From positions 1 through 37,567 of IMG/VR virus record IMGVR_UViG_3300029268_000054: a stretch of DNA of 37,567 bases; one strand, given 5' to 3'. The notes beneath the pieces were generated by a model. That model saw only the letters and a list, made by a program, of their open reading frames with translations, made no database searches and had not been told where the DNA came from. The position numbers and the translations under genes are program-made. How positions within the stretch are numbered: position 1 is the first letter of the stretch; every line of letters starts with the position of its first letter. Source of the DNA: a virus. Positions 1-37,567 of this stretch are shown here, piece by piece.

Positions 1-295
1 CCCAACACTACGTCTTAATTGAGAAATTTCCTCATCACGCACCATCCGGCGACATTCTATGGTTACATTTTGGTTATCCAAAAATAAAATATTTCCGACT
101 TTTTTTTTCTCAAAATATTTTAAAATTTGAAGAGTTTTTTTGTTATTTTCTCCTAAAATTTTGCTCCATTGCTTCAGACTTTTGGTTGAAATTCCACCCT
201 CCCAGAAGATTGCACAAAGCACTATTGACCATGCCCCAGTAATCGCTAGTGGGTGTTCCTGCATATCCCTCATAAAGTCGTTGGGGTAAAATTGG
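1..295. repeat. Left arm of a terminal inverted repeat
   Basis: The first 295 bases reappear as the reverse complement of the last 294 bases. Reading both arms base by base I find three differences: a one-base T deletion in the right copy (T run at 126-128) and two substitutions (227 and 245). The left arm lies inside the 5' part of the replication gene, which is open through the whole arm. Similarity stops abruptly at 295, where the left copy continues into the rest of the gene and its start codon. Confidence 0.95.
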
Positions 296-2429: not shown

Positions 2430-2689
2430 GTACGCCTCAGCAACTGTTCACGCAGAGACAATATTTCTGCATCCTTAGACTTGATGATGTTTGCCGCTTC
2501 TTGCGCGGCCCCTTGGATACACTCTATGGGGGTACGACCTTTAAAGAAAGGACCGGGAGTAGCATCATTCCATTCATATGTTTTGTGATAAGCGGCTCCT
2601 GCCTCAGCTACTGCGGACAAAATTTTGTCAATCTCATCGACTTTTGTACGGTCAAAGCTGTAATAATAGGCCTCCATGTTGTATTTCAT
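2426..2689 (-). CDS. Hypothetical phage protein, 87 residues
   Basis: The product begins MKYNMEAYYYSFDRTKVDEI and ends in a helix rich in charged residues (KSKDAEILSLREQL) that could form a coiled coil. A helical central part (ILSAVAEAGAAYHKTYEWND) is followed by a loop with PGPFFKG. I recognise no family. Its ATG overlaps the stop of the DUF6378-like gene by four bases and its stop overlaps the next ATG by four bases, so it sits in a translationally coupled chain and is very likely expressed. Confidence 0.7.
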   Translation of the reverse strand: MKYNMEAYYYSFDRTKVDEIDKILSAVAEAGAAYHKTYEWNDATPGPFFKGRTPIECIQGAAQEAANIIKSKDAEILSLREQLLRRT

Positions 2690-2961
2690 TTCTCCCCCTT
2701 TGCATCCATTAAATTATGGAGTAGTTCCCCATAGCCAATGATATCAACCACGCTATCAGGTGAATACTCAGGACCTTGTAAGCGCGCCAGCTTGAAGAGT
2801 ATCATAAGGGCTGCGACGTCCTTGCCTTCCAGAGGACCGCGCCGATTGTCAAGGTACGCGTTCCAGAAGCGAGCTATCCTTGCAAAGCTCTCTTTTGCCG
2901 GGCCGTATTGTTTCTGTCTTTCCCCGTTTATCAATTCGATTGCTCTCGCTTTAACGCTCAT
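2686..2961 (-). CDS. DUF6378-like phage protein
   Basis: The 91-residue product has the hallmark order of the DUF6378 phage family: INGERQKQYG near the start, an aromatic helix (RFWNAYL), KDVAALMILFKLARL in the middle and VDIIGYGEL near the end. The family is common in phage early operons and has no established biochemical role; the helical architecture with conserved GERQxxYG and KxxRL motifs loosely recalls the MazG-like group, but that link is my inference. The start follows GGGAGGAAAACG. The 5' end overlaps a tiny membrane-protein gene (2951-3055) in another frame. Confidence 0.75.
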   Translation of the reverse strand: MSVKARAIELINGERQKQYGPAKESFARIARFWNAYLDNRRGPLEGKDVAALMILFKLARLQGPEYSPDSVVDIIGYGELLHNLMDAKGEK

Positions 2962-3055
2962 CGTTTTCCTCCCTGTTGATCCAGAGTAACGAGTAAGATA
3001 TCAACCCGAAGGCCACTATTACCGCGATGAAACATATAACGAGGTCTGTTAACAT
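2951..3055 (-). CDS. Single-pass membrane micro-protein, 34 residues
   Basis: ATG 3053-3055 follows AAGGAGGATAA, one of the best ribosome sites in the operon. The 34-residue product starts MLTDLVICFIAVIVAFGLIS and continues YSLLWINREENDER: one hydrophobic segment of about 22 residues and a charged C-terminal tail. It overlaps the stop of the upstream gene and the first codons of the DUF6378-like gene. A small inner-membrane protein acting early in infection is likely; superinfection exclusion or membrane-enzyme inhibition are possibilities only by analogy. Confidence 0.7.
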   Translation of the reverse strand: MLTDLVICFIAVIVAFGLISYSLLWINREENDER

Positions 3056-3198
3056 TTATCCTCCTTTTTAGTCTGTCGGTTGCGGCTGGGGCTGTGATCT
3101 ACCAAGCCCAGGGCGTTAATGTAATGGTGGAGTGTGTCGAAGTACCACGAGGTCCACATTATCCACGACCACGCGTATCGTTCCATCGGATTATTCAT
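3049..3198 (-). CDS. Trp-rich small protein, 49 residues, unknown
   Basis: The product begins MNNPMERYAWSWIMWTSWYF and ends with a basic tail (SRNRQTKKEDKC). Four Trp within residues 10-18 followed by DTLHHYINALGL suggest a short amphipathic or membrane-associated helix. ATG 3196-3198 overlaps the upstream TGA (ATGA), and CAGGAGG lies 12 bases upstream. A longer in-frame start at 3276 would overlap the Cys-rich gene 3195-3359, so I reject it. No family recognised. Confidence 0.6.
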   Translation of the reverse strand: MNNPMERYAWSWIMWTSWYFDTLHHYINALGLVDHSPSRNRQTKKEDKC

Positions 3199-3359
3199 TT
3201 GTTTTTGCGCCTCCTGACGCACTCTAGCCCTTCCAGTCCAAGCCAAGTTGCCAAGGTTTCGAAGCACAACAGGCATAGCGCCTTGATGCTTCCATCATTG
3301 TAGGTACATTCCGCATAGGTAGGTTCTTTGATTGTCTTCCGGCAAAAATCGCATTTCAT
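3195..3359 (-). CDS. Small zinc-ribbon protein, 54 residues
   Basis: The product starts MKCDFCRKTIKEPTYAEC and has CxxC at residues 3-6, a Cys at 18, CLLC at 29-32 and one more Cys at 46. Two CxxC knuckles about 25 residues apart are typical of a treble-clef or ribbon zinc site, here followed by an amphipathic helix and a basic end (RRRKNK). ATG 3357-3359 overlaps the TGA of the HNH gene. It is one of several small Cys-pair proteins in this operon; a regulatory or host-interaction role is likely but unproven. Confidence 0.7.
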   Translation of the reverse strand: MKCDFCRKTIKEPTYAECTYNDGSIKALCLLCFETLATWLGLEGLECVRRRKNK

Positions 3360-3757
3360 ATCAGTTTCCCGAAGTCCCTTTCTAAAGTATTGAGATGCTT
3401 AGTAAGGTGCTCCTTTGTTTCTTTCAAGTCCTCGACGCTAACCTTACAGGACTTTCCGCCGGCATATCCCAACTCCTGAAGCCTCAAGTACTCCTCTTCT
3501 CCGATTACACCAATTATGGTGTTGCGGAATCTCTCAGGGTCTATTTTCTCGAAGAAGTGGACCCCAGCGTTGAGAGTAATTCCGTTTTCGAGCAGCCAGC
3601 GGGTCCGGAGGTAGCGACGCGAACAGATATGGTGCGACTGTAGGCTATAGTCTTTTCCGCTGACTTGGCATTTCCGGTCTCGCACTTTCACCGCCAGACT
3701 CCAAAGCATATCGCAGTTCTTGATCAGCCTCTGCCGTTCTGTTTTGCACTTACTCAT
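3356..3757 (-). CDS. HNH-family nuclease (NinG-like)
   Basis: The 133-residue product has a Cys at 30 (RKCQVSG), a double His at 42-43 (LQSHHICSRR), an R-x-R-W stretch, then ENGITLNAGVHFF with Asn 58 and His 67. This spacing matches HNH or His-Me endonucleases, and the HHI-SRR-R-RW-NGI-L order is close to phage NinG/Rap-type recombination nucleases; a second CxxC of the full zinc knuckle is missing. A helical, charged C-terminal tail follows. It would cut DNA during recombination or replication. Coupled to the zinc-ribbon genes on both sides by ATGA overlaps. HNH is fairly sure, NinG-like is moderate. Confidence 0.7.
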   Translation of the reverse strand: MSKCKTERQRLIKNCDMLWSLAVKVRDRKCQVSGKDYSLQSHHICSRRYLRTRWLLENGITLNAGVHFFEKIDPERFRNTIIGVIGEEEYLRLQELGYAGGKSCKVSVEDLKETKEHLTKHLNTLERDFGKLI

Positions 3758-4104
3758 GCTGCTACCGCCTTTCTCGGCTTGCTACAGGGGGCGGCCGGAA
3801 TTCTACTAACTTCGCGCCCGATTCTGGTCAGGGTTTCCTCGAAGTCCTCTGCCATATCCTCGATATTGATCAGACGGGAGATGCACGTTTGACACAGCAG
3901 CCCGAACTTTGACATTGAGAGGACCAAACCGTCTCGCTCGCACAGATCACAGGTCCCCCGGATAGGCCGGTACGCTTTTACCTGCTGCCTCTGCTTTCTC
4001 GGCTTGTCGAGATTCTCCACAAATATTCTTTCGTCGCAGGGGCTACAGTTAGGCCCAGGGTTTCCACTTCTCAGTTCGCATCCGCAAGATTTACAAGTTC
4101 TCAT
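3754..4104 (-). CDS. Double zinc-ribbon protein, 116 residues
   Basis: Two Cys clusters are visible: RTCKSCGCEL with NCSPC in the first 25 residues, and GTCDLCERDG with LLCQTC in the middle. Each has the CxxC...CxxC form of a zinc ribbon; the linker between them is basic (KPRKQRQQVKAYRP). The C-terminal third is helical and acidic, then turns basic. This layout suggests nucleic-acid binding. AAGGAGGAAAAA precedes the ATG. The stop overlaps the start of the HNH gene (ATGA), so the two proteins are co-translated and may work together; this is inferred. Confidence 0.7.
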   Translation of the reverse strand: MRTCKSCGCELRSGNPGPNCSPCDERIFVENLDKPRKQRQQVKAYRPIRGTCDLCERDGLVLSMSKFGLLCQTCISRLINIEDMAEDFEETLTRIGREVSRIPAAPCSKPRKAVAA

Positions 4105-4114
4105 TTTTTCCTCC

Positions 4115-4288
4115 TTATTGGATCGTATCCGTGACTGTAGCGTTCATCATAAGTTCGTTCCTAACAATTTCGAGTGCTTCTTCGCTGGCCGCTTGACATT
4201 CGGAGCAGCAGATAATGATAACGACATTACCGTTTTCAAGTACGATTGTGCTTATCATCCATGTGTGTTCGTTAGTTTTATTAGGCAT
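4115..4288 (-). CDS. Hypothetical small protein, 57 residues
   Basis: The product starts MPNKTNEHTWMISTIVLENG, with a strand-rich stretch (NVVIIICCSEC) and a C-terminal helix (ASEEALEIVRNEL). A CC-x-x-C group in the middle could bind metal but no second pair is present. ATG 4286-4288 overlaps the stop of the upstream gene by three bases, and AAAGGG lies in a suitable position. Only ten bases separate its stop from the next start, whose ribosome site lies in this gap. No family recognised. Confidence 0.6.
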   Translation of the reverse strand: MPNKTNEHTWMISTIVLENGNVVIIICCSECQAASEEALEIVRNELMMNATVTDTIQ

Positions 4289-4493
4289 TTTCAAACCCTT
4301 TCTCGATTCCGAAATCGACTGTTTTCAGGTGATCCCGCACCTTGCACTTAGCGTCCCCGCAATAATGTAAGCAGTGGTTTACTGTGGATACCATGAGACC
4401 CCCGCACAGTGATTTGTGACGGGGGCAACGAACGAAGGAAACAACGTCTCCATCGGTGTGAAGTTTAGACGTGATAGGATAATATTCGGCCAT
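4281..4493 (-). CDS. Hypothetical Cys/His-rich protein, 70 residues
   Basis: The product starts MAEYYPITSKLHTDGDVVSF. Its centre has RCPRHKSLC and later HCLHYCGDAKC, giving five Cys and four His within about 35 residues, which fits one compact zinc-binding module. I chose ATG 4491-4493 because GAGGTGG lies directly upstream; a GTG two codons earlier lacks spacing. The gene follows the HTH regulator gene after 108 bases without a recognised feature. Function unknown. Confidence 0.6.
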   Translation of the reverse strand: MAEYYPITSKLHTDGDVVSFVRCPRHKSLCGGLMVSTVNHCLHYCGDAKCKVRDHLKTVDFGIEKGFENA

Positions 4494-4601
4494 AACCACC
4501 TCATTCTCTGGACAGATGCAAAGCGTTTATGATCGTTAAAATAACCAGGGCGCGTGACAATGTGATTATTGGAGCAAGTTCAAAAAGGGAAAAGCTACTA
4601 C

Positions 4602-4793
4602 TTAAACCAACAACTTTTTGGGGTTAACGTACAGGGCATGCGCGATTTTTTCTATGAACTTCAGGTTTGCTTCATCGGAGTTCCAATGATACCTGAAGAG
4701 TTGCCGCGACATTCCCGCCTTCTCTGCCAGGGTTGACATATTCAACCCTTTCTTTTTCATGACTTCCTGAATGAGCTTTTTGTTTGTTTTCAC
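4602..4793 (-). CDS. Cro/CI-type helix-turn-helix regulator
   Basis: The 63-residue product is almost entirely one HTH domain of the Cro/C1 (xre) type: NMSTLAEKAGMSRQLFRYH forms the two-helix motif and a last helix-strand segment ends in NPKKLLV. No second domain for ligand binding or cleavage is present, so it resembles Cro more than CI. The GTG at 4791-4793 is chosen because AAAGGAGGTAC precedes it. It is the first gene behind the leftward early promoter and faces a divergent rightward promoter, so it probably represses one or both; that is inferred from position. Confidence 0.8.
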   Translation of the reverse strand: MKTNKKLIQEVMKKKGLNMSTLAEKAGMSRQLFRYHWNSDEANLKFIEKIAHALYVNPKKLLV

Positions 4794-4815
4794 ACGTACC
4801 TCCTTTCTGGCTAAA

Positions 4816-4844
4816 ACTTTACACGGTCAAAACGATTATGTCAA
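4816..4844 (-). promoter_or_regulatory. Leftward early promoter
   Basis: On the minus strand TTGACA (4839-4844), a 17-base spacer and TAAAGT (4816-4821) fit a sigma-70 promoter closely. It lies 23 bases before the regulator gene start. TTGAC recurs inside the spacer (TTTTGACC), making a 14-base direct repeat that could be an operator. Confidence 0.8.
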
Positions 4845-4906
4845 GTTTTTTTTTGCATTTCTTTAAAAAAACCTTTATCCATAGGCTAATACAAAAAGAT
4901 TGAAGT

Positions 4907-4957
4907 GAAAATATTTTTTATATTTTGCTTGACACAGGAAAATATTTGGTGTAGGGT
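4907..4957 (+). promoter_or_regulatory. Rightward early promoter with upstream repeat
   Basis: TTGACA (4929-4934), a 17-base spacer and TAGGGT (4952-4957) make a sigma-70-like promoter with a perfect -35 box. The decamer GAAAATATTT occurs at 4907-4916 and again at 4938-4947, 31 bases or about three helical turns apart. The second copy lies between -35 and -10, so it is a candidate operator. The promoter serves the plus-strand early operon. Confidence 0.75.
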
Positions 4958-4995
4958 GTACTCAACAAATGGAAGTTCCTTCGAAAGGAGGAAAA

Positions 4996-5139
4996 ATGAC
5001 CCCCGTGTCTATCCAGAAGGAAGAGCGGGGGCGCAGGGGAAAAGAAACCCAATGTGTTGTGGCCCGGAGGTCTAGCCCACCTTCGGGCATTCAAAAGGAG
5101 GACTATGATAAAAGAAATAAACTATATAACTCTGGCTAG
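4996..5139 (+). CDS. Small basic ORF at the head of the rightward operon, 47 residues
   Basis: GAAAGGAGGAAAA precedes ATG 4996-4998, an excellent ribosome site. The product starts MTPVSIQKEERGRRGKET and is rich in Arg, Lys and Ser, with no motif I recognise. The DNA can also fold (CCCCCG near 5000 with CGGGGG near 5026, and GCCCG near 5062 with CGGGC near 5084), so the segment may act mainly as a structured leader or attenuator. Its last 35 bases overlap the next gene in another frame. Real translation is plausible because of the ribosome site, but biological meaning is uncertain. Confidence 0.45.
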   Translation: MTPVSIQKEERGRRGKETQCVVARRSSPPSGIQKEDYDKRNKLYNSG

Positions 5140-5299
5140 ACTCGGGGCGTGCCCCGCAGCAATAATAGCCTTTGGGAAATACTGTGGACCTTACGACACG
5201 GTATCTGTCGTGAGTGAAGCAAACAGACTGGGCAGACTAGATTGGGCAAACTGGCTGTTGCCCCGATGCATGGATAAAACACAGTATGTATTGAGTTGA
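5105..5299 (+). CDS. Hypothetical phage protein, 64 residues
   Basis: AAAAGGAGGACT precedes ATG 5105-5107; a longer in-frame start upstream has no ribosome site. The product has LARLGACPAAIIAFGKYCG at the front and a C-terminal block LDWANWLLPR. The plan LxxLxAC...W(A)xWLL recurs in many small phage proteins of unknown role found in early operons, where a cysteine helix and a DWxxWL end frame a short helical domain. No catalytic residues are evident. Confidence 0.7.
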   Translation: MIKEINYITLARLGACPAAIIAFGKYCGPYDTVSVVSEANRLGRLDWANWLLPRCMDKTQYVLS

Positions 5300-5323
5300 T
5301 AAACGAGTAAAGGGTGACGAGTG

Positions 5324-5530
5324 ATGCCATATAGAAGAGTAGATTGGGAGTATCAACGAGGGCTTGATTACGCAGGCTGGATTGACGACCTTGCGGATAA
5401 TTACGGACCCTGCGACTGCGGAGCGGACGACTGGCGGGTTGATGAGGGAGTCGGGCTGCACCACGGATCAATGGTGCTTACCTGCGAAAACTGCGGTGAA
5501 GTTAATATATTAACAATAGAAAGGAGGTAA
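5324..5530 (+). CDS. Zinc-ribbon protein, 68 residues
   Basis: The product holds CDCG near residue 30 and CENCG near residue 54, a clear two-knuckle zinc ribbon in which the second half reads like the C-terminal knuckle of many small ribbon proteins (LTCENCGEVNIL). The N-terminal part is aromatic and acidic (RVDWEYQRGLDYAGWIDDL). I chose ATG 5324-5326, with AAAGGGTGA upstream; GTG 5321 is in frame and possible. Function unknown. Confidence 0.65.
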   Translation: MPYRRVDWEYQRGLDYAGWIDDLADNYGPCDCGADDWRVDEGVGLHHGSMVLTCENCGEVNILTIERR

Positions 5531-5531
5531 A

Positions 5532-5762
5532 ATGCGAATACTTGATGCTAAAAAAGAGTTGGCGGAGTTGGCAAACGGGAAGTATCACTGTATCACGATG
5601 GAAATCCACGGGCACAAGCATCGTGATGAAATCAGGACGGTAGCGTACATCGACGGGGAACCGATTTCCTACGCCTCGACATTCCGCGAGGCACTAGACG
5701 GACTGCGGGTCAAGTTAGGGATGGAGCCTTTAGAGACTGACGCTGAAGACGTGGAGGAGTAA
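5532..5762 (+). CDS. Hypothetical protein, 76 residues
   Basis: AAAGGAGGTAAA precedes the ATG one base after the previous stop. The product begins MRILDAKKELAELANGKYHC, contains an HGHKHRD segment that could contact metal or nucleic acid, and a typical strand-loop-helix region (RTVAYIDGEPISYASTFREA), ending in an acidic tail (EPLETDAEDVEE). It directly precedes the exonuclease gene with no gap, so it may be part of the recombination set, but I recognise no family. Confidence 0.7.
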   Translation: MRILDAKKELAELANGKYHCITMEIHGHKHRDEIRTVAYIDGEPISYASTFREALDGLRVKLGMEPLETDAEDVEE

Positions 5763-6407
5763 ATGCCTACCCAAATATACCGCACTGCTAACGGAGAGAG
5801 GGTCCCAGGGGTTACTACGGTCATTTCAAATCTTGGCTGGAACAAACAAGCCCTCATGTATTGGGCTAACCAGCAAGGGTTAGAAGGAAAGAGCCACAGG
5901 GAGACAGTCCAGAAGGCCGCTGACGCAGGGACATTAGCTCACGCTTATATCGAGGCAGACCTGCAAGGGCAGGACTTCCCGGCTGGTGATTACGACCAAG
6001 AAATTATCGACAAGGCAGAACAGGCGTTCCTGAATTACGTTGACTGGAAAAACGTCGTCGGGTTCGCGCCTGTCGGGACGGAAATCCCTTTGGTCAGTGA
6101 GTCGCTGGGATATGGAGGCTGTCTCGATTGCGTATGTCTTATTAACGGCAAGCACTCATTGTGGGACTGGAAGACCAGTAATGGTGTGTATTCCGAATAT
6201 CTCATTCAGGTGGCGGCGTACAAGGCGCTCTGGGAAGAGAACAATCCGGACAAGCCACTGTCAGGGGGAATATATCTGCTCAGAATAGATAAGGAGTCGG
6301 CGGCCTGGGCCATGCACTTCTGGCAATCTGCTGATCCAGCGTACGAAGCGTTCAAGCACCTGCTGGCAATCCATAAGCTACAAAAAACGATAAAGAGACT
6401 GGCTTAG
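5763..6407 (+). CDS. PD-(D/E)XK exonuclease (RecB/Cas4-like)
   Basis: The 214-residue product has the motif order of RecB-type PD-(D/E)XK nucleases: GTLAHAYIE with His 60, then GYGGCLDCV with Asp 122 as the metal-binding acid, DWKTSN at 135-140 giving the (D/E)XK lysine, and the QVAAY helix at 149-153. An opening segment with VPGVTTVISNLGW is also usual for these phage exonucleases. It would resect double-stranded DNA ends to make single strands for the ERF protein encoded next door. The gene starts at the base after the preceding stop and ends ten bases before ERF, with AGGAGG in the gap. Confidence 0.88.
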   Translation: MPTQIYRTANGERVPGVTTVISNLGWNKQALMYWANQQGLEGKSHRETVQKAADAGTLAHAYIEADLQGQDFPAGDYDQEIIDKAEQAFLNYVDWKNVVGFAPVGTEIPLVSESLGYGGCLDCVCLINGKHSLWDWKTSNGVYSEYLIQVAAYKALWEENNPDKPLSGGIYLLRIDKESAAWAMHFWQSADPAYEAFKHLLAIHKLQKTIKRLA

Positions 6408-6416
6408 GAGGTACCA

Positions 6417-6980
6417 ATGGAAAAATCTGATAGCATAGGAAAACTTGCAGAAGCACTGGCTAAGGCGCAGAGCGTTATGACGGGGGCAATTAAGGACTCA
6501 GATAACCCCTTCTTCAAGTCACGCTACGCCGACCTCTCGTCGGTATGGGACGCCTGTCGGAAGCCGCTTACCGAAAACGGGCTGGCTGTTATCCAAACGA
6601 CGTGTACGATGCCGGAAACCCCGGAATACGTTGTTGTCGAGACAATCCTGACCCATACCTCTGGGGAATGGATAAAGGGCAGGCTGGCCATGAAACCAGT
6701 CAAGCAAGACCCACAGGCAATAGGGAGTTGTATCACCTATGCCCGCCGCTACGCCCTTGCAGCAATGGTAGGTATAGCCCCTGAGGACGACGACGCGAAC
6801 GCTGCAAGCGGGAAGGGTAAACCTCAGGATAAGAACGAGGTAATGAGAAAGACTGAAGCGGCGGACACTGGAAAGCCCAGGCAGAGCGGATCAGCTATCT
6901 ACTGCCCCGATAAGGCCAACAAGATTCAGCCCAAAGCACAGTGCGAAGGGTGCGCGAAGAAAAACGAATGCTTAATCTAA
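6417..6980 (+). CDS. erf: ERF-family single-strand annealing protein with C-terminal Cys knuckle
   Basis: The 187-residue product matches the ERF superfamily of phage annealing proteins: FFKSRYADLSSVWDACRKPL at 32-51, an alternating strand region, THTSGEWI, and AIGSCITYARRYALAAM at 101-117 followed by GIAPEDDDAN. It anneals complementary strands during phage recombination and genome circularisation. After a polar linker the last 25 residues carry Cys 163, 176, 179 and 185, a probable zinc knuckle not part of the core. Neighbouring genes supply exonuclease and SSB. The start follows AGGAGGTACC. ERF assignment is very likely; the zinc site is inferred. Confidence 0.92.
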   Translation: MEKSDSIGKLAEALAKAQSVMTGAIKDSDNPFFKSRYADLSSVWDACRKPLTENGLAVIQTTCTMPETPEYVVVETILTHTSGEWIKGRLAMKPVKQDPQAIGSCITYARRYALAAMVGIAPEDDDANAASGKGKPQDKNEVMRKTEAADTGKPRQSGSAIYCPDKANKIQPKAQCEGCAKKNECLI

Positions 6981-6994
6981 AGGAAGGTGCTTAT

Positions 6995-7588
6995 ATGCGT
7001 GTACTTATAGCTTGCGAGTTCTCCGGTATAGTGCGTAACGAGTTTATTAGACTAGGGCATGATGCTTGGTCCTGTGATTTGTTACCTTCTGAAATTCCCG
7101 GCAACCATTTTGAGGGAGATGCTTTGACAGTTGCTTATAACGGGGTATGGGATTTAATGATAGCCCATCCACCGTGTACCCACTTAGCAGTATCAGGAGC
7201 GAGGTGGTTTAAGGACAAGAAGACAGAACAAGAACAGGCATTGTTTTTTGTTCAAAACCTAATGGATGCTCCAATTGGACGTATTTGTATCGAAAACCCT
7301 ATATCTGTTATTTCCAGTAAGATTCGTAAACCTGACCAAATTATTCAGCCTTGGCAATTCGGCCATGGGGAGATAAAAGCAACGTGCTTATGGTTAAAGA
7401 ACTTACCTAAACTTGTTCCAACAAATATCGTTAACGGAAGGACTCCTAGGGTACATCGAGAGCCACCCGGCCCCGATCGATGGAAGAATAGATCGAGGAC
7501 ATTACAGGGGATAGCAGAAGCAATGTCCAGACAATGGAGCAATCATATAACAACTAAAAAACAGGAGGCAACACATGAACAAGGTTAA
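6995..7588 (+). CDS. Short cytosine-C5-methyltransferase-like protein
   Basis: The 197-residue product opens with MRVLIACEFSGIVRNEF, a C5-methyltransferase motif-I-like loop that binds AdoMet, then SCDLLPSE, HPPCTHL with the catalytic-type PPC at 59-61, and ENP at 100-102 (motif VI). QPWQFGH and RSRTLQGIAEAM follow, the latter resembling the end segment of this phage subgroup. It is much shorter than classical enzymes (over 300 residues): the target-recognition domain and the QRR motif VIII are not evident. Such mini-proteins are common in phages and may be active, a decoy or act on nucleotides. I chose ATG 6995 with AAAGGAAGG; an in-frame start at 6941 would overlap ERF. Confidence 0.75.
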   Translation: MRVLIACEFSGIVRNEFIRLGHDAWSCDLLPSEIPGNHFEGDALTVAYNGVWDLMIAHPPCTHLAVSGARWFKDKKTEQEQALFFVQNLMDAPIGRICIENPISVISSKIRKPDQIIQPWQFGHGEIKATCLWLKNLPKLVPTNIVNGRTPRVHREPPGPDRWKNRSRTLQGIAEAMSRQWSNHITTKKQEATHEQG

Positions 7589-27637: not shown

Positions 27638-28954
27638 TTAGTATACGCTTGGCTCGGTAAGGTCGTTCAGGGAGCTCAAGCAGTTACGCTGTTCTGTCCC
27701 CAGGTTAGTGTAGATCCGAAGGAACAAATCGAACTCGTCATAGCCTGACCTTCTGTGCATATTGCTACCGTCAAGATTTCCCCAGCCCAGCGGAGTCATT
27801 TCGTACTTCTGAATGACGCCCTTAGGCATGAAGCGAATCTTGTTCGGCTGGCACATAGGATCGATGACTATCTCAACGGAACCGTCGCCGCCGGAGAAGG
27901 TCAAGGTCTCGTATCCGCCCTTCAGGGTCCCGGGCTGGAAGCGCACGTCACCGATGAGCAGGTTAGCGTACTTCCTTCTCTGGCCAAGGCCCATCAGGAT
28001 CTGATTTACTTCCTTGCCGGAGTTCATCCTGGTCAGGTCACAAGCCTGCAACATCAGGTCGATGCTCAGGTCGCGATTAACGCTCGAATTGCTCAGGATG
28101 TTCGCTTTCCACTTCGGATAGCTAGCAACAACGATATTCTCGAAGGTGGACAGATTAGTACCATCGTCGAAAATACCTTCGATCCCAACAATTTCAGCCG
28201 CCTTATCATCCGAGGTCCAGGAAGCATCACGCGCGCCAAGGTGGACAGCAATTGAGGCCGCCGCAACTTCTGTGGCGTCATTGGTGTAACCAGCAATCGT
28301 GCTGTTCGGGTGGTCGGTAAGATAAGTTTGTCCGGAAATCTCAAACGTGACAACTTTGGTCGCCGGATTAACGATACTCACGCGCTGGCCGCAGCAAGTA
28401 GTTATCGGGGTTGAGCCGGCGCTGTTGAACATATCAACCAGCATCCCCTCCTTGAAGTACTTCACACCCAAATCGTTATCAAACGTACCAGTAAAGGTAG
28501 CCGAGGTAGACGGGGTCATGGCCGCACTCAGGGTCCCGAGCTTCCCGAAGCCATCGGAATGACACTGGCGGTTAAGGTCGTTCACGAGGCCCTTGTATAA
28601 ATCATCCATTTCATCGGACAAGCCATCCACGAACGCTGCTGTGTCGCCCTTTGCAGCCTCAATCATCGGACCTGTTAAGCGCAGGGATCCGTAAATGTAC
28701 TTCGGGAGTATTGTCCCTTGGTCCTTCTTACCGGTCATCGGGGTGGGCAGCTTTGCAGACTCAGCCCTGCCGCCGACAGACTGATTTCTCTCATACCGGA
28801 GTCCAAACACATAGCCGAGGCCTTTGGGCTGTCTATCGGACTTCGAGAACAGGTTGTAGGTTGTCTTTTCGTCATTAAACTGATTGGTCAGTCCAACGCC
28901 ATAAACATTTTTCAACAGGTCAGCAAGATTGGTCAGGTCAGAATATGTACTCAT
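27638..28954 (-). CDS. Major capsid protein (HK97 fold)
   Basis: The 438-residue product starts MSTYSDLTNLADLLKNVYGV and lies directly after the scaffold gene. Features that fit a P22- or HK97-like capsid subunit are an early RNQSVGGRAESAKLPTP segment, an SLRLTGPMIEAAKGDTAAF helix that resembles the spine helix start, DDLYKGLVNDLNRQCHSDG, and an ending with YDEFDLFLRIYTNLGTEQR. No N-terminal cleavable delta domain is obvious; a separate scaffold serves instead. The gene follows AAAAGGATAATAA. The assignment rests on pattern and on gene order. Confidence 0.85.
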   Translation of the reverse strand: MSTYSDLTNLADLLKNVYGVGLTNQFNDEKTTYNLFSKSDRQPKGLGYVFGLRYERNQSVGGRAESAKLPTPMTGKKDQGTILPKYIYGSLRLTGPMIEAAKGDTAAFVDGLSDEMDDLYKGLVNDLNRQCHSDGFGKLGTLSAAMTPSTSATFTGTFDNDLGVKYFKEGMLVDMFNSAGSTPITTCCGQRVSIVNPATKVVTFEISGQTYLTDHPNSTIAGYTNDATEVAAASIAVHLGARDASWTSDDKAAEIVGIEGIFDDGTNLSTFENIVVASYPKWKANILSNSSVNRDLSIDLMLQACDLTRMNSGKEVNQILMGLGQRRKYANLLIGDVRFQPGTLKGGYETLTFSGGDGSVEIVIDPMCQPNKIRFMPKGVIQKYEMTPLGWGNLDGSNMHRRSGYDEFDLFLRIYTNLGTEQRNCLSSLNDLTEPSVY

Positions 28955-30525: not shown

Positions 30526-32574
30526 TCATGCCGCCGGCGATCCTTGCTGCGGTGCCCCTTGCTGCGGTGCCCCACCTTGAGGTGCTTGCATGGCCGCTTG
30601 CGCTTCTGCGTCTGCCACCTCCTGACCCTTGGCGAGGATCTTGTGGAGCGAGCAATGATCGATCAACACTTCCTGCCCCTTCTTCGGCAAGTCCTTGAAC
30701 TCCGAGGAAAGAATGAACCTGCGATGTATCTCAGCGTGTACCTTGTGGTTATCGAACTTAAACGCCGGATCATCGTTGATAGGCATATCGTCAGGGTTCA
30801 GGGTACCGTCCGCTCCTATCGGGGCGATAAAAATGTTCTCGTAGGAATTAGCGGAGATTTCCGCGTTCTCGTCATCGGCGCGCGCTATGTCGGCGTTTTC
30901 GTAGTCGGCAAAGCCAGCAAGTCCCATGCGAATCAACAGGTCCTGCCGAATCTCGGGGTTGTTAACAACGTCTCCAAGCATCCCCTGTCCAGCAAGCTGC
31001 ATCAAGAGTTGGTTCTTACCTGCATTAGTTGAGCTCAATCCCGAATCGAGCTCCATCCGCACGTCTGTGTTGTTGTGAAGGTCTGAAGCCTTGAACTGCT
31101 TGATGTTGACCTTATTTCCACGGCCCACGATCTTGATTGTGCGCTCTTCAGTGTACAGTTCCTGCACGACAAGCAAGCGTTTCTTCTGCACGCGGCCCCA
31201 GGACAGTTTAAAACGATCAACGTCCGGCTGGTGCCCCTGCATTGCGGTATCTCTCAGGATATCTACCTGTATCCCGCTCGCGCTAGCGGATGGAGGCACG
31301 CCCTTTAATATGTTCTTCGGGTCGCCAGACGAATCCTGAATCTGCACCTTCATGTTGTTGCGGTGTTCGAACACTTGACTGGGCAGTGGGGTACCATGCT
31401 CTATTGACGGCTTCTGTCCCCCTGACATTAGTGGGTCGTATTGCAGCATCAACAGACCAAGTCCGCCCTCGTTTACCCTTTTAATCCCGATTTCGCCCGG
31501 GGTAATTACTCTAGGACGGCCCAAGCCTCGCATGTTTATTTCAACTTGCTGGTCGATCAGGTTCAACGTGTTCTGCGGGCTGATTAAGTCATCCACGCCA
31601 GACCGGGACCAGAATCGTCCTGGAACATACTGAAAGTGGAAGTCGGTCAGAGAGTAACAGGACTTGCCCTTCTCTGCCTTGATCGGAAGTCTATCAGCGT
31701 TTACCAGTATCTTGCCCCCTGCGCTAACGATGTACTTGCCGTGCGGATACTTCTTCGATGGCTTGAACTCCACCTCTTTAAACACGCACAGGTCTTCGGA
31801 ATCGTAGTCAGTCAGTCCGGTCTCATCCAGGCCGATGCCCTTCCAATTCGAAACGTTCCCGACAAGCTTCGCGAGCCGTTTCTGGTAGTCAAGCGACTGA
31901 GTATCATCAGTCTGCACCAGCTTCGTGCCGAAAGTATCCTCGACCCACTCCTTGCGCTTCAGACTCTGCATGCCGATGTACCGCATATCCTCGAGAGCGG
32001 TCTCGATCGGGTCAACGCGCACGTTAAATGGAAGGATAGCGTCAGATCGCACGTCACCTGTGGTCACGATGGAACCATTGGAATTAATAAACCAAGAGCC
32101 ACCTTCCTTGTACGGGTAGGTCCTGATAAACGACGTACCGCAAAGTACCATCATCACGGCCGCTTTCTCACGCTCGTTGTGCAGCCGATAATCGTCGATA
32201 CTCTCGCAAAATACTAAGACCTCCTCAGCTAACTGGGAGGCCATAACGTCGCGCTTCTCGGAGGAGTTGGGCCATACTCTAGGACTGTACTTCTGGTTGA
32301 GCAACAACGCCTTCTGACTATTAACATAGTCGCTAATCTCATTGCTAACAGGGGTCGGTATCCAGTCGGGCATTGTGCGCCGCACGAACGTTTTACCAGT
32401 CTGCGACCAGCTAAGCCACTGCTCGCCCAGGGCGTAGAGGATGTTTCTGAACCAAATACGCTCCAACTGCTGGCGCGAGTAATCAGAGGTGTCGTCGAAA
32501 ATATTATCAATCTCCGCGATTAACACCGCTTCGTCAGGCTTTGTCTTGCTTTTAAACAGATCGAGTATTCCCAC
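30526..32574 (-). CDS. Portal protein (P22-like)
   Basis: The 682-residue product forms the dodecameric portal through which DNA enters and leaves the head. Typical portions are the helical front (YSRQQLERIWFRNILYALGE), KAAVMMVLCGTSFIRTYP, DILPFNVRVDPIETALEDMR-type wing segment, YVPGRFWSRSGVDDLISPQN with NLIDQQVEI leading to the stem, and LLVVQELYTEERTIKIVG. The C-terminus is Gln/Pro/Gly-rich (QGGAPQQGAPQQGSPAA) and ends at a TGA. The same frame then stays open for 16 Pro/Gly-rich codons up to TAA 30475-30477, so readthrough or a recent nonsense change is possible. GTG start at 32572-32574 after a run of G. Confidence 0.9.
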   Translation of the reverse strand: MGILDLFKSKTKPDEAVLIAEIDNIFDDTSDYSRQQLERIWFRNILYALGEQWLSWSQTGKTFVRRTMPDWIPTPVSNEISDYVNSQKALLLNQKYSPRVWPNSSEKRDVMASQLAEEVLVFCESIDDYRLHNEREKAAVMMVLCGTSFIRTYPYKEGGSWFINSNGSIVTTGDVRSDAILPFNVRVDPIETALEDMRYIGMQSLKRKEWVEDTFGTKLVQTDDTQSLDYQKRLAKLVGNVSNWKGIGLDETGLTDYDSEDLCVFKEVEFKPSKKYPHGKYIVSAGGKILVNADRLPIKAEKGKSCYSLTDFHFQYVPGRFWSRSGVDDLISPQNTLNLIDQQVEINMRGLGRPRVITPGEIGIKRVNEGGLGLLMLQYDPLMSGGQKPSIEHGTPLPSQVFEHRNNMKVQIQDSSGDPKNILKGVPPSASASGIQVDILRDTAMQGHQPDVDRFKLSWGRVQKKRLLVVQELYTEERTIKIVGRGNKVNIKQFKASDLHNNTDVRMELDSGLSSTNAGKNQLLMQLAGQGMLGDVVNNPEIRQDLLIRMGLAGFADYENADIARADDENAEISANSYENIFIAPIGADGTLNPDDMPINDDPAFKFDNHKVHAEIHRRFILSSEFKDLPKKGQEVLIDHCSLHKILAKGQEVADAEAQAAMQAPQGGAPQQGAPQQGSPAA

Positions 32575-33148: not shown

Positions 33149-35734
33149 CTAAAAGTCTGCGTAATCCTCTAAGTTATCCTGCTTGCGACGTATCTCAGCA
33201 AGCTCTGTCCACGCAACAGTTGTTACGTTCTGCTCCTTCTTTACCTCTTTGGGCTTCCGTGGTCCCTCACTAATCGGTCGAGCCAGCAACAAGAAACAAA
33301 TCGAGTCGAAGCTGTGGTCCTCGCCGTCGGTGTCGATATCCTCAATGTTACGTTCGTCCTGCTGCAACATCGGGATAGTCCGTATAAAGTTAGTGCACCT
33401 CTCGTACACTCTCAACATAGGCGGCTCATCCGCTCGAATCCTTAGCCGATCGTGAAACTGGCGTACCTTCTTAACTCTATCAGCATCACCAGGATAGCCC
33501 TGCACGCCGCACTCCCTGAATACCTCGGCTGTCGCCTTGCCCTGCCCTCCGCCCTTGTAATCAGGCTTCTTCGAGAAGCAATCCGGACTCAGTATCCTGA
33601 TAATGTTGCGCTTGCTGATACCAATGCGCTCTTCTCGAGCCTTAATACCCTCAGCAATCTCGCTGTCCGTGAGCCTCAATCCTGTATCAGGCTCACCAGT
33701 CGAGCCGTAGTACTCATCAAACACGTGTATTCGCCCGTCGCCGTCTAACCACGACCAAAGGACGCTAAAAGGCTTGCCGTATCCCCAATCAAATGTCATG
33801 TAGATCGGGCTGGTCTCACCTATCGGCGTATCGTTTGGCACTCGGTGTGCAGGGCCGAACTCCGGGAACGCCTGCCCCAAGAAGATGTTCCAGTCGCCAT
33901 CTTTAAACGCCTTGCGCAGTGTCTCCGGTAGCGTGTCAAGCTGTTGCCAGTAGCTAGCTGGTAAGTGCGGGTTATCATCAGCCTTGCTCGGGATGTAGGC
34001 GAACTGGCTGCGATAATCAACCGGGGAAATCCACTCGCTCGGGAACTGCTTATCCATCCAGAGTTGTTTAACCCAGCCATGCCCGATGCTGCCGGGGTTA
34101 GTCCCCGCTATGAACTGACAATCAATATCCTCAAGTCCAGGCCAGCGCAGTCGAGTTCTCAGGTGAGTGAACGTGTCGTAATCGTTCTTGGTAAGCTCAT
34201 CCACTGCTATCATCGCAAACTCGGAGCTCGCGTATTTACTCGGATCATCCAGGTTACGAAACACAATAACCCCAGAGCCGTATTCTGGGGCCAATATAAA
34301 GCAGCGTCCGTAATCCTTATGATCGTTGTGCGACTTGCCAAGCCAGTCAGGAAACTCTCTGGAAATCTTGGATAGTTGCCTATCCTTGAGCGCAGGGTAA
34401 TTTTCACACGCCAGCATTATAACCGCGCCTGTTATCCCTTGCATAAACAGTCGCATGTGCTTCTTGACGCAAAACCAGCGCAGGAGGTAGCTATTGTGGG
34501 TCGGGATCATGGTCTCGCCGCACAAATACATATGAGAAGGAGCGTCCACCGAAATGCACTTCAGCGGTACTTGGTCTACCTCTTCAACCTTAACGATATA
34601 CCTGCGGTCGTGTGTGCCTCTAAACCCGTCAATCTTCTGTCGTGCAAGTTTCCTTTCAAGGCGGAAGGCAGGCATGTTGGTAATGAACTTCATCCTCCAT
34701 CGAGGACCGTAATCAATCCCGTTCAACTTAGCGCGTGACTCGCACGCTGTTACCTTGATACCAAGAGATAAGATTAATTCCCTGACTCCATCAACCAACT
34801 CTTTCCGCGTCAGCGTGATTTCGCACTGCCCTCGTGTGTCGCAAGTGCCGTCCGTGTCCATCAATCCTTGAAGTAACGCTAGTCTCTGGTCAACAGACGC
34901 CCTAAGGTACTGCATAGGGATATGTTTGTTTCCTTGTACACCTATTTGTTTAAGCTTACTGACAAGGCCAAGAATGTAATGACTCTTCTCGCTCTTGTGA
35001 TGGCTAACCCTGTATCCATCCTTTTCAATCTCTTCGAATATCTGCGGGTCTATCCCTGTTAGACCCCCGCTTATCGACGTTCCGTCACCTAACCATGACC
35101 CCAGAGTGTAGGGAGGCACTACCAACTCAGACTTAGGTAACTGTAAAGGACCGCATACCCTAACCGCATGATTAGCCTGGGGTCCTTTGTAGAGCGTGTC
35201 TTTAATCTCCTGCGTGGTCTTAATGGACGGCACAACAGGGGCACTTACATAATGACTTGCAACTTCTGAATTTCGTACAGCAAGGTCCGGTCTCTTACCT
35301 GTAGACCGCGATGCTCTTGACGCCCTGCGCTGCGCTCTGAACTCAGGAGACCTACGCAGTGACGCCTGAATATCAGCCATCGTCTCAGTAACCCACTGAT
35401 GCCTCGCTCCCGCTACAAGCTCGCTACCATCACTAAACGTTAGCTTGTACGTGGTCTCATACTGTACTTCTGAGACCCAATCAACGTTGCACACCTTGCC
35501 GTGTTCGTCGTACACTTGGTCGCCGGGCTTAAGGTCTTCCATGGTGGTCCAGCCGTCAGGTGTTGGAATTACTGTGCTTATCGCCAGAAGTTTACCGCCA
35601 CCTAGTGCGCCGCCGTAAAGCAGGAACTTTACCCCACCAGACTCAGCAACCCTTGTCGCCTCACGCTGTCTTGGAGTAAACTTTGCTAAATCTCGGTTAA
35701 AGTTGAGGGCTTTCGCCTTCGCGTTTTGTTTCAC
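33149..35734 (-). CDS. terL: Terminase large subunit interrupted by an intein
   Basis: The 861-residue precursor contains 495 residues of terminase. The ATPase P-loop GGALGGGK ends at residue 48 and continues with SYLLRW at 415, after the intein. Walker B is AVDEL (510-514), motif III is IAGTNPG (542-548), and the nuclease domain begins YMTFDWGYGKP (645-655, Asp 649) and closes with the acidic DGEDHSFDS motif. The protein pumps DNA into the head and cuts it. The GTG start at 35732-35734 overlaps the TAG of the small subunit by one base. Activity requires removal of the intein because it splits the P-loop between Lys and Ser. Confidence 0.93.
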   Translation of the reverse strand: MKQNAKAKALNFNRDLAKFTPRQREATRVAESGGVKFLLYGGALGGGKLLAISTVIPTPDGWTTMEDLKPGDQVYDEHGKVCNVDWVSEVQYETTYKLTFSDGSELVAGARHQWVTETMADIQASLRRSPEFRAQRRASRASRSTGKRPDLAVRNSEVASHYVSAPVVPSIKTTQEIKDTLYKGPQANHAVRVCGPLQLPKSELVVPPYTLGSWLGDGTSISGGLTGIDPQIFEEIEKDGYRVSHHKSEKSHYILGLVSKLKQIGVQGNKHIPMQYLRASVDQRLALLQGLMDTDGTCDTRGQCEITLTRKELVDGVRELILSLGIKVTACESRAKLNGIDYGPRWRMKFITNMPAFRLERKLARQKIDGFRGTHDRRYIVKVEEVDQVPLKCISVDAPSHMYLCGETMIPTHNSYLLRWFCVKKHMRLFMQGITGAVIMLACENYPALKDRQLSKISREFPDWLGKSHNDHKDYGRCFILAPEYGSGVIVFRNLDDPSKYASSEFAMIAVDELTKNDYDTFTHLRTRLRWPGLEDIDCQFIAGTNPGSIGHGWVKQLWMDKQFPSEWISPVDYRSQFAYIPSKADDNPHLPASYWQQLDTLPETLRKAFKDGDWNIFLGQAFPEFGPAHRVPNDTPIGETSPIYMTFDWGYGKPFSVLWSWLDGDGRIHVFDEYYGSTGEPDTGLRLTDSEIAEGIKAREERIGISKRNIIRILSPDCFSKKPDYKGGGQGKATAEVFRECGVQGYPGDADRVKKVRQFHDRLRIRADEPPMLRVYERCTNFIRTIPMLQQDERNIEDIDTDGEDHSFDSICFLLLARPISEGPRKPKEVKKEQNVTTVAWTELAEIRRKQDNLEDYADF
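34493..35590 (-). other. Class-3-type intein with LAGLIDADG homing endonuclease
   Basis: Residues 49-414 of the terminase precursor (366 residues) are an intein. Block A reads LLAISTVIPTPDGW, so position 1 is Leu (CTT), not Cys, Ser or Ala. Block B is GARHQWVT with Trp 114 two residues after His; block F is LKCISVDAPSHMYL with Cys 393 at the position usually Asp; block G is PTHN followed by Ser 415, with Thr 412. These Trp, Cys and Thr are the WCT marks of class 3 inteins, which begin splicing by attack of the block F Cys. Two dodecapeptides, LGSWLGDG (211-218) and LLQGLMDTDG (287-296), show a LAGLIDADG endonuclease that appears intact. Confidence 0.88.
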
Positions 35735-37196: not shown

Positions 37197-37273
37197 TCTT
37201 TTTCTTCACTTTTTTCTTGACTTTTTAAAACATTATTTATTTCGCGTAGTTATGCCCTAAAAAATATTTCAAA

Positions 37274-37567
37274 CCAATTTTACCCCAACGACTTTATGAG
37301 GGATATGCAGGAACACCCACTAGAGATTACTGGGGCATGGTTAATAGTGCTTTGTGCAATCTTCTGGGAGGGTGGAATTTCAACCAAAAGTCTGAAGCAA
37401 TGGAGCAAAATTTTAGGAGAAAATAACAAAAAAACTCTTCAATTTTAAAATATTTTGAGAAAAAAAAAGTCGGAAATATTTTATTTTTGGATAACCAAAA
37501 TGTAACCATAGAATGTCGCCGGATGGTGCGTGATGAGGAAATTTCTCAATTAAGACGTAGTGTTGGG
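37274..37567. repeat. Right arm of the terminal inverted repeat
   Basis: This arm is the reverse complement of 1-295 with a one-base deletion and two substitutions. Similarity ends at CCAATTTTACCCC (37274); to its left lies unrelated AT-rich DNA belonging to the late promoter region. It contains the interior of the replication gene without the true start. Confidence 0.95.
37296..37448 (+). pseudogene. Broken copy of the replication-initiation gene
   Basis: Read on the plus strand, the right arm matches the inner N-terminal part of the replication protein from MRDMQEHPLE on. Compared with the left copy, an Ala has become Glu, a Ser has become Leu, and the missing T shifts the frame so that a TAA follows TLQF after 50 codons. 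The segment upstream (37250-37273) does not encode the missing first 31 residues and offers no ribosome site. If real DNA, this is a decayed partial duplicate. Confidence 0.65.

Follow-up and report, generated by a model that had tools for sequence, protein, structure and literature searches.

A probable mobile class 3 intein beginning with leucine at the P-loop of a tailed-phage large terminase

The large terminase (TerL) gene of the virus record IMGVR_UViG_3300029268_000054, whose full 37,567 nucleotides are referred to here as the window, is interrupted by an element that we consider, with a probability of about 0.93, to be a mobile class 3 intein of a tailed-phage terminase, inserted at the classic site in the P-loop, between its Walker A Lys and Ser. 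This class had been proposed in a sequence-only reading of the DNA, and the assignment is upheld by the evidence from alignment, tree, structure and empty sites presented below.

The interrupted gene belongs to an ordinary packaging module, which comprises the following features:

33149..35734, minus strand: large terminase (TerL) gene with a GTG start, encoding an 861-aa precursor (Pfam Terminase_3, E 5e-9)
35591..35734, minus strand: N-extein, 48 aa, with the Walker A sequence ..LLYGGALGGGK as its C-terminal end; uninterrupted in the relatives L183-L199
35591..35614, minus strand: P-loop half GGALGGGK, precursor residues 41-48
33149..34492, minus strand: C-extein, 447 aa, with the P-loop Ser as its first residue
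35734..36216, minus strand: small terminase gene, directly upstream of TerL (PHROG 1482, E 3e-41)
30526..32574, minus strand: portal gene, downstream of TerL (PHROG 156, E 2e-14)
27638..28954, minus strand: major head protein gene, downstream of TerL (PHROG 14242, E 6e-43)

The exteins are intact: in the C-extein, the Walker B motif is kept as IAVDE and those of the nuclease as FDWGY, SPDC and EDHSFDS.

Elsewhere in the window, positions 5763-7588 on the plus strand hold a small recombination/modification block with a PD-(D/E)XK exonuclease, an Erf-like annealing protein and a DNA methyltransferase. The two ends of the record form a 295-nt inverted terminal repeat (window positions 1-295 and 37273-37567), the arms of which differ by 2 mismatches and one 1-base indel and are perfect over the outer 125 nt. 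Such a repeat is unusual in a terminase-encoding phage and could represent real inverted terminal repeats, a linear-plasmid form, or an inverted repeat into which the contig ends run; in a pattern scan of viral contigs, 25-nt pieces of it were found in no other viral contig.

Within the precursor, the Walker A motif GGALGGGK^S is divided in such a way that its Ser, precursor residue 415, is split from the Lys by 366 residues, which start with LLAISTVIPTPDGWTTM and end with CISVDAPSHMYLCGETMIPTHN. This insert contains the following elements:

34493..35590, minus strand: class 3 intein, 366 aa
35552..35590, minus strand: block A, LLAISTVIPTPDG; residue 1 is Leu, encoded by CTT at 35588-35590
35387..35428, minus strand: block B, GSELVAGARHQWVT, with Gly61 at B:7, His64 at B:10 and Trp66 at B:12
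35081..35110, minus strand: first LAGLIDADG motif, YTLGSWLGDG, intein residues 161-170, with Asp169 at the catalytic position
34847..34876, minus strand: second LAGLIDADG motif, LLQGLMDTDG, intein residues 239-248, with Asp247 at the catalytic position
34520..34567, minus strand: block F, PLKCISVDAPSHMYLC, with Cys345 at F:4 (34556-34558), the proposed initiating nucleophile
34490..34513, minus strand: block G region, ending in IPTHN plus Ser+1, with Thr364 at G:5, His365 and Asn366

In precursor numbering, Trp66, Cys345 and Thr364 are Trp114, Cys393 and Thr412, respectively; His64 stands two residues before Trp66, and Thr412-His413-Asn414 (intein residues 364-366) are followed by Ser415 as the +1 residue. 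The split P-loop, Leu1, Trp114, Cys393, Thr412 and the intein blocks had all been pointed out before, and each was found at the position given for it. A second IMG/VR contig (L002) shows 9 mismatches to the window over 5444 bases, none of them in the intein, and since it carries the identical CTT codon, a random sequencing error at Leu1 is unlikely.

The intein scores above the cut-off of the Pfam models LAGLIDADG_3 and Hom_end, and its AlphaFold model matches the structures of PI-SceI and I-DmoI. In line with the earlier description of two LAGLIDADG motifs and an intact endonuclease, Asp169 and Asp247 are retained; among the 176 class 3 inteins collected, they are conserved in 175 and 169, respectively. 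As both catalytic-position Asp residues are kept, the endonuclease looks intact.

The intein signal as such is far beyond chance, as indicated by a PDB match with an E value of 6e-20, by the Pfam endonuclease matches, and by 754 phage records with matches to the intein. The best PDB sequence matches obtained with phmmer are the class 3 DnaB inteins 6rix, 6bs8 and 6riy (E 6e-20 to 3e-19, covering both splicing halves), compared with 6riz, a gp41-1 intein grafted with the class 3 motif (E 2.5e-6), and 6qaz, the wild-type class 1 gp41-1 intein (E 0.0017). The AlphaFold2 model of the intein (mean pLDDT 94) predicts a HINT fold as in the solved class 3 inteins: when aligned with VIA-align, the splicing half matches 6bs8 with a Z of 22.6 and 1.3 Å over 124/125 residues at 40% identity, and gp41-1 with a Z of 18.9, while the whole-length model matches the intein endonuclease PI-SceI with a Z of 27.

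A tree of the splicing blocks, which has few columns and a weak inner order, splits 10 actinobacterial class 1 inteins from the rest with an SH-aLRT of 99. The solved class 3 inteins fall on the window's side of this split, and the window intein is thus a member of a monophyletic class 3 clade. Hence, the profile search and class 3 tree that had been suggested as a check place the intein with class 3 and apart from class 1.

The single residues likewise conform to class 3. In place of Cys, Ser or Thr, residue 1 is Leu (CTT at 35588-35590, the same in L002), Trp B:12, Cys F:4 and Thr G:5 are present as W66, C345 and T364 (the W/C/T set), and these are accompanied by His64 at B:10, the terminal H365-N366 and Ser at +1. 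Relatives were gathered with a profile built from five loci and the window; among them, His64, Trp66, Cys345, Thr364 and Asn366 are kept by 176/176 full-length class 3 inteins, 174 of which follow a Lys, and they are invariant in 225 nonredundant class 3 inteins as well, a set that includes later loci from further similarity searches and is not an unbiased sample.

The Cys, Ser or Thr that class 1 requires at residue 1 is replaced by Leu, and Gly stands at B:7 instead of Thr or Asp. Both residues might be expected of an intein of the class 1 type whose N-terminal nucleophile was lost recently and whose splicing has ceased. We regard such a dying intein as very improbable, given that the complete W/C/T set is present along with His64, His365, Asn366 and Ser+1, that the intein groups with class 3 at an SH-aLRT of 99, and that Leu1 recurs in 22 of the 225 nonredundant intact class 3 inteins. 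Moreover, the extein motifs of the interrupted terminase gene are intact, so the phage should not survive an intein that fails to splice. Still less credible is a class 2-like mechanism, in which Ser+1 attacks the N-terminal junction directly and Cys F:4 is dispensed with. It would fit the missing nucleophile at position 1, as in the KlbA inteins (PMC4031507); however, the class 2 inteins known so far are without exception KlbA orthologues that carry Ala1, Ser at G:6 and Cys+1 (PMC4031507), whereas the window combines Leu1, His365 at G:6 and Ser+1 with the W/C/T set of class 3. Within class 3, one decayed intein is known, Arsp-FB24 Arth_1007, which has lost Cys F:4 and His B:10 (PMC3196547), and because of this precedent splicing activity is beyond proof from sequence alone. 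Two loci, L215 and L256, were considered as class 1 inteins at the same site and rejected as such; they are divergent class 3 inteins with Ala1.

The NCBI model intein_Nterm (TIGR01445), which mainly helped to gather the class 1 outgroups, gave no match in the window, and the window's score for the Pfam model Hint_2 was below the cut-off. Both models appear to be tuned to class 1, and since the former is silent and the latter falls short, phage terminases probably hold more class 3 inteins than are annotated.

The insertion site was assessed by means of terminase relatives encoded on other viral contigs. At ~58-61% C-extein identity, these are uninterrupted at the exact proposed junction: the empty-site relatives L183-L199 read GGALGGGKSY.LRW without a break, as exemplified by L183 (KFLLYGGALGGGKSYFLRW) and L191 (KFILYGGALGGGKSYLLRW). 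The intein junction is set exactly by these intein-free relatives and corresponds to an insertion of the TerL1-a type, in which TerL is split after the Walker A Lys and before Ser/Thr (GGALGGGK^SY). The placement of the intein in the TerL P-loop, as given in the sequence-only reading, is thus confirmed by empty sites at ~60% TerL identity. An intein is present at the same site in L189 (59% identity over the C-extein) and in L201-L204 (48%), and the distribution among relatives is sporadic. In L024 the intein is 58% identical to that of the window, whereas the C-extein is only 30% identical. Intein and host similarity are therefore uncoupled, which is the behaviour of a mobile element.

Class 3 inteins splice by attack of a block F Cys, which generates a branched thioester at block F. 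We infer that the window intein splices through a corresponding order of intermediates, in which Cys345 (F:4), aided by His64 and Thr364, would attack the Lys(-1)-Leu1 bond to form the block F branched thioester. The N-extein would then be transferred to Ser+1, Asn366 would cyclise, and an O-N shift would yield the native GGALGGGKS. Leu1 would have no chemical role and may be tolerated for steric reasons, since Gly61 (B:7) replaces the Asp that normally faces residue 1. The LAGLIDADG domain, if active as an endonuclease, would cut intein-less terminase alleles at the same site and so spread the element; the L183-L199 junctions are candidate targets. Because the Walker A Lys and Ser are 366 residues apart in the precursor, unspliced TerL is expected to be unable to hydrolyse ATP, and splicing would therefore be a prerequisite of packaging.

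The sequence-only reading had gone further and suggested that splicing would gate packaging. The position within the P-loop of the packaging ATPase is in keeping with a class 3 intein that serves as a regulatory gate on DNA packaging via its catalytic Cys, for instance by redox or metal control, and in mycobacterial class 3 DnaB inteins oxidation of this Cys causes a reversible inhibition (PMC6195587). Nevertheless, we hold such a gate to be unlikely: mycobacteriophage terminase inteins spliced readily when tested (PMC5050341), inteins prefer conserved active sites regardless, since homing requires a conserved target, and there is no sign of regulation in the window.

Leu as the first residue had been singled out in the sequence-only reading, but it does not make this class 3 intein special. 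Leu is the second commonest residue 1, both in the 176 class 3 inteins (Ala 115, Leu 27, Gly 10, Arg 7, Met 7, Asp 3, Glu 3, Gln 2, Cys 1; none with Ser or Thr) and in the 225 nonredundant ones (Ala 150, Leu 22, Gly 13, Met 13, Gln 8, Arg 6, Pro 4, Asp 3, Glu 3, Cys 2). It changes repeatedly: the full-length tree requires 14 changes, of which well-supported branches force at least 5, and all four CTN codons as well as TTG are in use. The 21 Leu1 exteins scanned gave family matches to terminases (Terminase_6N 10, Terminase_3 4) but never to DnaB; matches to DnaB_C and further helicase families were confined to Ala1 exteins. Leu1 is thus ordinary for class 3 inteins of environmental phages. Nothing useful on Leu1 or on residue 1 of class 3 inteins was found in the literature searched, outside of which most subscription papers lie.

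The collection also contains two loci (L064 and L366) that combine the full class 3 W/C/T set with Cys at residue 1 and Asp at B:7. In six others (L075, L095, L100, L110, L115 and L427) the penultimate His is replaced by Cys or Gly (IPTCN, IPTGN); this class 3 subgroup is mostly inserted after ..PQK or AQK rather than in a canonical P-loop.

Residue 1 of class 3 inteins is variable yet apparently constrained, as it covaries with B:7, the position three residues before the catalytic His; the pair in the window is Leu1/Gly61. In the 225 nonredundant inteins, Ala1 or Gly1 occurs with Asp at B:7 in 135/163 cases, whereas Leu1, Met1 and Gln1 do so in only 6/43 and mostly have Cys or Gly instead; Asp1 is found with Gly (3/3) and Arg1 with Asp (6/6). 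Association of a column with residue 1 by Fisher test alone was discarded as evidence, because the clade structure makes many columns significant. When phylogenetically independent pairs were taken from the best tree, the pairs in which B:7 changed together with residue 1 numbered 14.0 and those in which it changed in the opposite sense 0.2 (median sign-test p 1.2e-4), which makes B:7 the strongest of 365 positions, with many of these pairs spanning weakly supported branches and with the grouping (Leu, Met, Gln, Asp and Glu versus Ala and Gly) chosen after the table was seen. B:7 also keeps the first rank with a second tree and with a coding that takes in every non-Ala/Gly residue; coding Leu versus the rest puts it third or first, and Ala versus all others ninth or second. 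Strongly supported branches alone leave 4.2 pairs in the expected direction and 0.1 in the other (median p 0.125), which are too few.

In the structure of the M. smegmatis DnaB intein, the B-block residue Asp62 is reported to lie near Ala1 and possibly to position the scissile bond (PMC6195587), which makes a direct contact between residue 1 and B:7 plausible. We lean, by a narrow measure, towards the view that class 3 inteins possess two interchangeable solutions for the N-terminal junction, namely Asp at B:7 combined with a small residue 1 (Ala or Gly), or Gly or Cys at B:7 combined with a residue 1 that is bulky or acidic (Leu, Met, Gln or Asp), with Arg1 keeping Asp, and that many evolutionary switches between them have occurred, mostly in phage terminases. 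The covariation may be new, as no earlier report of it was found in the literature searched, which leaves out most subscription papers. It would mean that Leu1 and Gly61 form a compensated pair, which is the reverse of N-terminal decay, and therefore suggests that Leu1 is accommodated rather than decayed. The rule is testable, and the window intein is a natural test case for it: if true, L1A and G61D exchanges should be epistatic. It bears on how class 3 inteins can do without a nucleophile at the N-terminus, and on which first residues are usable in engineered class 3 splicing.

Several terminases in the collection contain more than one intein. That of L040 (633-4322) harbors a P-loop Leu1 class 3 intein and two class 1-like inteins with Cys1, of which the first precedes Walker B and the second lies at the H^C site of the nuclease domain, and those of L041, L044 and L251 combine the P-loop class 3 intein with a Cys1 intein near the nuclease motif. 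In these four cases, two splicing chemistries are present in a single terminase polypeptide. The L071 terminase (2455-5769) apparently carries two class 3 inteins, a P-loop Leu1 intein and a Pro1 intein near Walker B, the latter with the end TGN, HTWW in block B and Cys at F:4.

The closest counterparts of the window intein are found on environmental contigs and in one MAG (L189, L251, L024 and L105), where Leu1, Gly at B:7 and the W/C/T set likewise occur after GK. The inteins of L189, L251 and L024 are 55-58% identical to that of the window, and the L189 terminase is 59% identical; L251 differs by its additional Cys1 intein. Among sequenced isolates, RcKickapoo (Rhodobacter), CMP1 (Clavibacter, putative terminase), Vibrio phage 489E54-1 and Stenotrophomonas phage SOVA965 carry class 3 inteins after GK with the W/C/T set, in genes annotated as terminases and with ~35-37% whole-intein identity to the window. 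They start with Arg, Asp, Ala and Pro, respectively, in place of Leu. The window intein is thus a further example of an already known type.

The mycobacteriophage TerL1 inteins also reside in the terminase ATPase domain, and the TerL1-a site, termed 'classic' and located between the P-loop Lys and Thr, is homologous in position to that of the window (PMC5050341). However, they belong to another terminase family (the window has Pfam Terminase_3) and another host range. TerL1-c, -d and -e are class 3 inteins, and five representative terminase inteins spliced (PMC5050341); unlike in the window, the class 3 TerL1 inteins named in that study occupy other sites, namely a poorly conserved helix and Walker B. 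The class 3 DnaB inteins of M. smegmatis and M. chimaera (6bs8 and 6rix) resemble the window intein in the splicing domain (~40% identity, fold within 1.3-2.0 Å), the W/C/T set, His B:10, the THN end, the +1 Ser and the insertion after the P-loop Lys (PMC6195587). In contrast to the window, with its terminase host, Leu1 and Gly at B:7, they are mini-inteins in DnaB that lack an endonuclease and have Ala1 with Asp at B:7. To these systems the window adds a class 3 intein that is full-length, bears an endonuclease and sits at the terminase catalytic lysine; such inteins are widespread in uncultured phages.
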